Assembly: GCF_013409575.1 (NCBI RefSeq)
Contig: NZ_JACCCY010000002.1
Coordinates: forward strand, 434,001-498,000
Direction: 5' to 3'
DNA: 64,000 bases
Source: Macellibacteroides fermentans
GTDB taxonomy: Bacteria > Bacteroidota > Bacteroidia > Bacteroidales > Tannerellaceae
Shown here: positions 14,298 through 59,367 of the stretch, one piece after another
Layout of the letters: each line of letters begins with the position of its first letter
Position numbering within the stretch: position 1 is the first letter of the stretch
Made by a program: the position numbers and the translations under genes
The notes under the pieces: model-generated
Database searches by the model: none
Told to the model about the DNA's origin: nothing
Seen by the model: the letters and a program-made list of their open reading frames with translations, nothing else

Positions 14298-14332
14298 ATT
14301 AAAAAAGGCCTGTCGCAAGAGCGGCAGGCCTT
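14298..14332 (-). terminator. trp attenuator terminator
   Basis: On the minus strand AAGGCCTGCCGC, loop, GCGACAGGCCTT and six U form an intrinsic terminator between the leader peptide and trpB. It can stop transcription before the structural genes when tryptophan is plentiful. Confidence 0.88.
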
Positions 14333-14374
14333 CTAAAATATCTTATACTTTATGGATATACACAGGACTGTTCC

Positions 14375-14434
14375 TTACGACTTTGTGAGTTGTAAGAAGC
14401 GCCACCAATATGTATTAACCATTATAGTTCTCAT
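14375..14434 (-). CDS. trpL: trp operon leader peptide
   Basis: A 19-codon ORF reads MRTIMVNTYWWRFLQLTKS, with two adjacent UGG codons at positions 10 and 11. It lies just downstream of a consensus promoter and about 40 nt before a terminator hairpin. A ribosome stalling at the Trp codons when charged tRNA-Trp is scarce would change pairing downstream and prevent the terminator. From memory this matches the Bacteroidetes trp-leader RNA described computationally (Bacteroid-trp motif). I did not derive the alternative antiterminator pairing. Confidence 0.88.
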   Translation of the reverse strand: MRTIMVNTYWWRFLQLTKS

Positions 14435-14457
14435 TTCCTTTGTTGTTATATCGGCAG

Positions 14458-47199: not shown

Positions 47200-47451
47200 A
47201 TGAACATTTACATTGGCAATCTTAGCTACACAGTTAAGGAATCGGATTTAAGACAAGTTATGGAAGACTATGGTACAGTTGATTCAGCAAAATTAATTAT
47301 TGACCGTGATACTAACAGATCTAAAGGTTTTGCATTTGTAGAAATGCCAAACGAGGCTGAAGCTATCAATGCAATCAAAGAATTGGATGGAGCAGAATAT
47401 CAAGGCCGTCAGATGGTTTTGAAGGAAGCTACTCCTAAGCGGTCTTATTAA
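47200..47451 (+). CDS. RRM-domain RNA-binding protein
   Basis: The 83-residue protein is a single RNA recognition motif: RNP2 is IYIGNL near the N-terminus and RNP1 is KGFAFVEM. It matches the small RRM proteins common in Bacteroidota and cyanobacteria. These are candidates for global RNA chaperones in a phylum that often lacks Hfq. It stands alone, behind a T- and pyrimidine-rich leader, and has a strong terminator. Confidence 0.93.
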   Translation: MNIYIGNLSYTVKESDLRQVMEDYGTVDSAKLIIDRDTNRSKGFAFVEMPNEAEAINAIKELDGAEYQGRQMVLKEATPKRSY

Positions 47452-48673: not shown

Positions 48674-48758
48674 CTTTTAGCTTGAATATTGTGCATCCGG
48701 GCACTTTCGTGCGGTAAGCGTCTCCGCGATACCGTCTTGTAAGATTTATTAATTGTTA

Positions 48759-51300: not shown

Positions 51301-51394
51301 TATCTCTTTGTAAATTAAAAGGATAGAGCCGAATAATGATAGATAACAGATTGTTTTGCAATAAATCGGTTTTATTTGGAAGATGAACCGTCTA

Positions 51395-51476
51395 TAAACA
51401 ATTAAAGGATGTCATCCCGACATCCCCTAACCAAACTTTGTTAACCTTAAATCTAATACTATTATGAAAAAACCAC
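51395..51476 (-). ncRNA. Candidate orphan antisense small RNA
   Basis: On the minus strand a near-consensus promoter (CTTG, 19 bp, TATCTTTG at 51488-51481) would start a transcript of about 80 nt. It would end at the hairpin GGATGTC-GGGAT-GACATCC followed by TTTAATTGTTT. The plus strand of this interval (TTAACCTTAAATCTAATACT, then ATGAAAAAACC) looks like the translation-initiation region of SusC-type genes, so the RNA would be antisense to such leaders. No SusC gene is adjacent. PUL-associated antisense RNAs (DonS type) are known in Bacteroides fragilis; assignment here is by resemblance. The terminator U-tract is weak. Confidence 0.5.
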
Positions 51477-51480
51477 GATA

Positions 51481-51511
51481 CAAAGATAGTGGAATACATT
51501 TATTTGTCAAG
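51481..51511 (-). promoter_or_regulatory. Promoter of the small-RNA candidate
   Basis: CTTG (51511-51508), exactly 19 bp, then TATCTTTG (51488-51481) on the minus strand, pointing away from the DUF3332 gene into non-coding DNA. Confidence 0.6.
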
Positions 51512-51579
51512 GGTTTTGGTCATAAAACATGTTAAACAATTTATAATAAATCTGAATAAGCAGATAATAGGACCAAAAA

Positions 51580-57443: not shown

Positions 57444-57861
57444 ATTGTTCGCCCAGCACGAACGTATTCTAACGGGTGTAAGTCCCCAACGCGCCCTAAC
57501 AGCGGGAAGCGTCCAGCCAACGACAAGGGTGTTCATCGCGAGGTGTAATCTGAAGGAAGTCTTCGGCAAAGATCTGGCCTGACGAACAGAAACTTGATAC
57601 CAAGGCTCACGAGTGTGGATTAGTTTGCAATACAAAACAAAGTCCGATAGCTGTTCGGAACACTTGGAGTAAATCAAGCAGGTATAAGATTGAAAGAATA
57701 CGTCCATAACTGGGGAGATCTCACGGGCGAGGTCATCCGAGCAGTAACAACGAACCGTGAGAAGTCAGCAGAGGTCATAGTAACCGGGAAGGGAAAAAAA
57801 CATCGACAACCTGGTGAAGGACTGAACTTTAATTAAACTGGAATTATTACATTATTACCAA

Positions 57862-59268
57862 ATGGAAGAAACAATGCAGCAAACAACAGAATCTGTTGGC
57901 TGCCATCAGATGAATAGGACGGAATCCGAAGGGTATGATGGAGCGCAGACTTTTATGAGGATAATAGGTGAAAACCTAGTGGAAGTGCAGATAGGCACAA
58001 CCAATTTGTTGGAACTTATCCTGAGTCCCGAAAACTTAAATCGATCTTATCGGCAAGTAATAGGGAATGACGGATCCGGAGGTGTCGATAAGATGGGAAC
58101 GAGCGAACTGTTGCCATACCTAAACCTCCACAAAGACGAATTGATAGAGCAGCTACTAAAGGGTAAGTACCGGCCCAATCCGGTCCGTCGTGTCGATATC
58201 CCCAAGGACAACGGCAAGGCACGTCAACTCGGTATCCCTACGGTTGTTGACCGGTTCATCCAACAGGCTATAAGCCAAGTGTTGATACCGATATACGAAC
58301 GAGAGTTCAATGACAACAGTTTTGGCTTCCGCCCAAACCGCAGCGCCCACGATGCGCTGAAGCGGGTGCAGGAATATGCAGACAATGGGTATCATTACTG
58401 CATAAACCTTGACTTGGAACGATTCTTCGATACAGTAAACCATAGCAAGCTGATAGAGGTGTTGTCACGGACAATCAAAGATGGACGGGTAATTTCACTT
58501 ATCCATCACTATCTCAAAGCCGGCGTAATGGTTGCTCATAAGTATGAATCAACCGAGGAGGGAGTTCCTCAAGGGGGTCCGTTAAGCCCGATTCTAAGCA
58601 ATATCTTGCTGAATGAGCTTGATAAAGAGTTGTCTCGCCGAGGTCATCCATTTGTACGCTACGCAGACGATTGTCTGATTTTGGTTAAAAGCAAGCGAGC
58701 CACAGAACGAGTACGAGACAGTATATCCACCTATTTAGAGAAGAAACTCTTCCTTAAAGTGAATATGGAAAAGACCATCATTGGAGATGTTCGAGGCATG
58801 AAATACCTTGGCTACTCATTCTACTGAAGGTCCAAAGGCAAGTGCGGTCTACGCACCCACCGTACAAGTCAAGAAAAGTTCAAACGCACGCTCAAACAAA
58901 TAACCAAACGAAACAATGGAAAAGGTTATGCATGGCTAAAGCAACGATTGTCACAATACGTACGAGGCTGGCTAACTTACTACCGTTTAGCAGACATGAA
59001 CCAATTTATCCAAAAGACGGATGGTTGGTATCGTCGCAGGCTAAGGACGTATATATGGAAGAGTTGGAAGAAAATCAGCACGAAGTCACATAATCTCCAG
59101 AAATGTGGTATAAACAAACATCAGGCTTGGCAATGGGCTAATACCCGTAAAGGATACTGGCACATAGCCAACAGCTGGGTGCTGCATCGGGCAATTACAG
59201 ATGAGAGTCTAGACCGAGCAGGTTATCCACAAATAATGAGATTATATCGCCGTCTGCATCGTAATTAA
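57862..59268 (+). pseudogene. ltrA: Group II intron reverse transcriptase/maturase, interrupted by TGA
   Basis: The frame has the RT domain with RQLGIPTVVDRFIQQA, NSFGFRPNRSAHDAL, QGGPLSPILSNI and YADD (267-270). After an in-frame TGA (codon 322, right after YLGYSFY) it continues with the thumb/maturase domain (WLKQRLSQYVRGWLTYYRL, NTRKGYWHIANS). There is no endonuclease domain, as in class C. The sequence closely resembles GsI-IIC-type enzymes. The single stop is best read as a nonsense mutation that inactivates splicing help; the truncated 321-residue product keeps the RT fingers and palm. Confidence 0.85.
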
Positions 59269-59270
59269 AG

Positions 59271-59303
59271 AACCGCCGTATGCCGAACGGCATGTACGGT
59301 GGT
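59271..59303 (+). other. Group II intron domain V
   Basis: AACCGCCGTATGCC, GAAC-type tetraloop, GGCATGTACGGTGGT form the short domain V hairpin with its two-nucleotide bulge, the catalytic core of the ribozyme. A longer domain VI hairpin (about 59313-59351) follows. Confidence 0.8.
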
Positions 59304-59367
59304 GGGAGAGGTCGGAAAACAAAAGTAGGAAGAAAACTACTTTTGTTTTCCTCCTACTCGATTTATG

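Follow-up and report, generated by a model that had tools for sequence, protein, structure and literature searches.

The minus strand of positions 51392-51476 very probably carries a stand-alone FopS small RNA (sRNA) gene whose product would act on unlinked susC-like mRNAs, as FopS RNAs do in B. thetaiotaomicron. These coordinates refer to the window, the entire 64,000-nucleotide stretch of Macellibacteroides fermentans DNA that was analysed. For the latter species, 14 FopS sRNAs are described that base-pair with the translation initiation regions of susC and inhibit its translation (Ruttiger et al., 2025; PMC11697453). Family membership, multi-copy status, the promoter boxes, a covarying hairpin and an excess of complementarity to SusC leaders were obtained directly for the M. 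fermentans RNA. The features of the locus are as follows.

51392..51476, minus strand: FopS sRNA, long form, ~80-85 nt (RF04319, 59.2 bits), with a predicted 5′ end at ~51476 and a predicted 3′ end at ~51392-51396
51433..51467, minus strand: seed region (R1/R1′ equivalent), in which CAU pairs with the SusC AUG and the rest with the leader, as judged from pairing scores and from the R1′ function given in PMC11697453
51400..51432, minus strand: terminator hairpin with a 13-14 bp stem and a 5-nt loop, followed by a U-rich tail at 51399-51392 (fold and covariation)
51481..51510, minus strand: sigma-ABfr-type promoter, TTGACA (from 51510) and TATCTTTG (51488-51481), assigned from its sequence boxes
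51529..51542, minus strand: AAATTGTTTAACAT, a partly decayed copy of a TATGTTG-NN-TAACATA-type palindrome, putatively a regulator site
ends at 48714 and 51242, same strand as the sRNA: complete IS66 element (transposase, TnpB, third ORF) with an 8-bp target duplication, TTCGTGCG, on both sides

Family membership and gene architecture

The locus matches the Rfam family RF04319 (FopS, "family of paralogous sRNAs") over the whole of the 71-position model, with a score of 59.2 bits against a curated gathering cut-off of 56 bits (E = 4.1e-6 in the whole-window search). The next-best family, GibS (RF04182), reaches 23.8 bits at this locus, far below its cut-off of 115 bits. GibS has the R1 seed in common with the window RNA, but it is longer (a 142-position model), carries a second seed, R2, is transcribed from a PM2 promoter and has other targets (PMC7366714). 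As expected for a paralogous family, the 3.94-Mb genome of M. fermentans yields 12 FopS matches, nine of them above the cut-off. The window copy and four others score 59.2 bits each and specify an identical 85-nt RNA, with differing promoter spacers, and two of the 12 are short (73 nt). FopS matches are present in 30 of the 41 genomes searched, M. fermentans included, and most related genomes carry several.

Read from 51510 to 51392, the minus strand consists of TTGACA, 16 nt, TATCTT(TG) and then GTGGTTTTTTCATAATAGTATTAGATTTAAGGTTAACAAAGTTTGGTTAGGGGATGTCGGGATGACATCCTTTAATTGTTTATAG, which places the predicted RNA start at ~51476, downstream of TATCTTTG. The gene thus has its own sigma-ABfr promoter as judged by sequence, and the same boxes recur in most long-form copies: TAnnTTTG is found in 138 of 143, and in 131 of the 143 it is preceded, at a distance of 17-21 nt, by a TTG-type -33 box. 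FopS genes of B. thetaiotaomicron are likewise served by sigma-ABfr promoters, possibly together with an unknown additional regulator (PMC11697453).

Support for the terminator hairpin comes from an alignment of 33 diverse long-form copies, most of which were retrieved by, and all of which were filtered on, an exact 37-nt 5′ pattern. This selection makes the 5′ half necessarily invariant, so that the alignment is uninformative on conservation of the seed; the 13-bp hairpin is not covered by the pattern. Changes on both sides are seen in 12 of the 13 hairpin pairs and 97% of the cells are paired; the covariation score is 0.642, compared with 0.232 for shuffled alignments and at most 0.148 for slid ones, and none of 500 shuffles reaches the observed value. 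The single-sequence fold of the window RNA has a z-score of -2.4. Fold and covariation together yield the FopS architecture, namely an unpaired 5′ seed (R1/R1′) followed by a 3′ intrinsic terminator hairpin. The U-tract of the window copy, UUGUUUAU, is weaker than that of many relatives. At two unlinked loci, L003 and L008, a second terminator-like hairpin (GGGGGAGCTATCTCCC plus a T run) lies directly 3′ of the FopS hairpin.

A first-pass annotation, made from raw sequence alone, had correctly inferred a trans-acting SusC repressor at this locus. Its individual observations hold as well: a promoter composed of CTTG, 19 bp and TATCTTTG, now seen as TTGACA from 51510 and TATCTTTG at 51488-51481; a hairpin (stem 51432-51400, with its U-rich tail) ending an RNA of ~80 nt, consistent with the RF04319 span of 51392-51476; a complementary strand that resembles a SusC leader up to a start codon; and no adjoining SusC gene, the neighbours being DUF3332, IS66 transposase and metallophosphoesterase genes. 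Its view that action in trans on unlinked genes would be a new mode has been overtaken, because this mode was already published in 2025 (PMC11697453).

Complementarity to SusC leaders and the proposed mode of action

Pairing was assessed for the 40 SusC genes of the M. fermentans genome that score above the TIGR04056 cut-off, using 850 nt around each start. The mean pairing score of the seed with these leaders is 22.5, compared with 18.7 ± 0.76 for shuffled seeds (~5 SD above), and none of 150 dinucleotide-preserving shuffles attains a mean as high. Thirteen leaders score at least 25, where the shuffles predict 2.1. In the best local pairings, the CAU of the sRNA often lies on the AUG and the remainder on the 20-30 nt upstream. 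Seed pairing is also stronger for SusC leaders than for 42 other genes (p = 1.8e-7), although this comparison is inflated because SusC leaders are AT-rich (74%, compared with 61% for the control genes), a bias that the shuffled-seed control answers only in part.

The complementarity to susC translation start regions thus exceeds that of shuffled seeds but is imperfect, with a longest unbroken stretch of ~11 nt among the pairings seen. A stricter, ungapped 19-nt test is weakly positive, as evident by five leaders with at least 13 matches (1.3 expected, maximum 6), and the same scan gave no clear preferred spacing that would support two spacing classes of SusC leaders. RNA duplex minimisation over 850 nt produced long, bulged duplexes and was uninformative. 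The matches of 20 nt or more that the first-pass annotation anticipated at several SusC starts are absent: when 30 nt of the leader-like plus strand were compared with the genome, allowing at most three mismatches, the near-perfect hits were other FopS copies only, with no SusC start among them. Trans-acting sRNAs, however, usually pair imperfectly with their targets. Taken with the B. thetaiotaomicron mode implied by FopS membership, complementarity above both the shuffled-seed and the non-SusC controls supports the proposal of an RNA that would act in trans on unlinked SusC leaders.

By analogy with B. thetaiotaomicron, where FopS represses SusC in trans and is bound and antagonised by the RRM-1 protein RbpB (PMC11697453), expression, repression and RbpB binding may be supposed for M. 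fermentans. RNA polymerase carrying sigma-ABfr would start at ~51476, transcribe ~80-85 nt and terminate at the hairpin. Through its single-stranded 5′ half, the RNA would then form imperfect duplexes at the translation starts of several unlinked susC-like mRNAs, such that the CAU sits on the start codon and ribosome entry is blocked. Glycan-uptake operons would in this way be turned down when substrate is scarce. A probable binding partner of the RNA is an RRM-1 protein such as RbpB, which may oppose its action. The genome holds three RRM-1 genes, one of which encodes a stand-alone 83-aa protein (window 47200-47451, plus strand; PF00076, 79 bits). It is separated from the sRNA by 4 kb, a proximity that may be coincidental. 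Elsewhere in the window, group II intron domains occur together with a reverse transcriptase ORF (57862-58827) at 57532-59362, and the minus strand carries a Bacteroidota trp peptide leader RNA at 14323-14454 (RF01692, 73.1 bits).

Origin of the window copy and competing explanations

The window copy is flanked by a metallophosphoesterase gene on the left and by DUF3332 and alpha/beta hydrolase genes on the right. In two sister species, G001 and G002, the flanking genes are adjacent, with neither FopS nor SusC between them, and thus the window copy was either gained in its own lineage or lost in the others. Syntenic partners were found for eight of the 12 matches in the M. fermentans genome, at seven locations (L001, L002, L003, L007 for a single flank, L008, the L009/L010 pair and L011), and these copies are kept in sister species although flank identity falls to 72-82%. 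Among the sister loci fetched, which represent part of the sister matches, the window copy, L004, L006 and L012 have no such partner. The L009/L010 pair (G000:C3:691273-691538; also L047 and L056) is a tandem arrangement of FopS genes ~180 bp apart that is kept in two sister species, and the seed of its upstream member has diverged in M. fermentans.

These observations bear on whether the RNA is real but the window copy is a surplus paralogue of little effect of its own, with other copies doing the work, a reading that we consider unlikely though deserving of weight. Redundancy or weak expression of the window copy would fit its partly decayed palindrome, with one half degenerate unlike in other long-form copies, its weaker U-tract and the empty site in both sister species; moreover, loss of an RNA identical to other copies would be buffered. 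However, the window copy retains an intact RNA and two intact promoter boxes, and perfect identity to other copies favours selection, recent duplication or homogenisation over decay.

It is far less probable that the locus is the relic of a deleted polysaccharide utilisation locus (PUL), the alternative offered by the first-pass annotation, in which a SusC leader was left behind and the antisense promoter is fortuitous or belongs to a left-over DonS-type antisense RNA. The plus strand does resemble a SusC leader up to ATGAAAAAACC, with no SusC gene near, but the same 85 nt recur at several unlinked places, the minus-strand hairpin covaries in relatives, and G001 and G002 share the flanking genes but have no SusC between them. 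These facts largely refute a relic. DonS cis-antisense RNAs of Bacteroides are of similar size and also have a negative effect on susC homologues, but they are encoded divergently to the homologue that they repress (PMC7366714). The window RNA is not of this type, as its DUF3332, IS66 transposase and metallophosphoesterase neighbours include no susC.

Carriage of the sRNA as cargo of the adjoining IS66 transposon, suggested by its same-strand genes and by the five identical sRNA copies in the genome, is refuted for this element and has next to no probability, because the IS66 ends (48714 and 51242) and the TTCGTGCG duplication leave the sRNA outside, a 100% identical IS66 sequence near L009/L010 stops at the equivalent of 51242, and the window copy has no IS66 flank in common with other identical FopS copies.

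Long and short forms of FopS

The stand-alone FopS gene of the window resembles those of B. thetaiotaomicron in being multi-copy, in its sigma-ABfr promoter, in an unstructured 5′ seed complementary to SusC starts and in its 3′ terminator hairpin. It differs in carrying CAUAAUAG in place of CAUGG, with three extra nucleotides between the start-codon and leader parts of the seed, and in a longer linker and stem (~85 versus ~73 nt). This long form, recognised here by its sequence, belongs to Tannerellaceae and their neighbours, whereas B. thetaiotaomicron FopS belongs to Bacteroidaceae.

At least 120 stretches contain the long form (CAUAAUAGUAUUAG). Among the matches listed, none is titled Bacteroides; the titles are Parabacteroides, Tannerella, Massilibacteroides, Proteiniphilum, Seramator, Dysgonamonadaceae and Porphyromonas macacae, with a few others or simply Bacteroidales/Bacteroidia. 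Across 295 Bacteroidales genomes, the exact long-form seed occurs in eight and the exact short-form seed in 47, counts that exact patterns underestimate. The main text of PMC11697453 treats FopS as conserved in Bacteroidaceae and reports a phage copy; neither Parabacteroides nor Tannerella is named there. The long form occurs beyond the Bacteroidaceae of that study, in Tannerellaceae, Dysgonomonadaceae and Porphyromonas. Viral contigs gave zero matches to the exact long-form seed; the short-form seed matches three, one of which passes the Rfam threshold (L226, 58.5 bits). Matching pieces in the phage collection cover only 25-27% of the query, and plasmid records gave partial matches only, except for one P. 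distasonis record. That record (NZ_OY725749.1, Parabacteroides distasonis, 169 kb, listed as a plasmid) resembles the sRNA plus promoter at four sites, the best of them annotated under dprA.

Upstream sequences also vary with form. A palindrome of the TATGTTG-NN-TAACATA type lies upstream of many FopS genes and is possibly the site of a regulator. In most short-form genes, a palindrome such as TATGCTGTATAACATA sits immediately upstream of the -7 box. Most long-form genes carry the TTG-type -33 box, and 55 of 143 have TTAACAT within 80 nt upstream. The palindrome pattern TATGYTGNNNAACATA occurs at five sites in the genome, two of which are short-form FopS promoters; the remaining three have no obvious regulated gene in common.

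We propose tentatively that the long form could form a FopS subclass of its own in Tannerellaceae, Dysgonomonadaceae and Porphyromonas. If so, the seed spacing widened by 3 nt, the -33-dependent promoter and the upstream palindrome would imply its own regulation and SusC targets partly different from those of the coexisting short form.

The window locus is real and well explained, and its kind is already published; what it adds, in taxonomic range and in form, is modest. A type of post-transcriptional PUL control that was described only recently, for Bacteroidaceae, is thereby extended to Parabacteroides, Tannerella and their relatives, and a single genome holds both forms of the sRNA.
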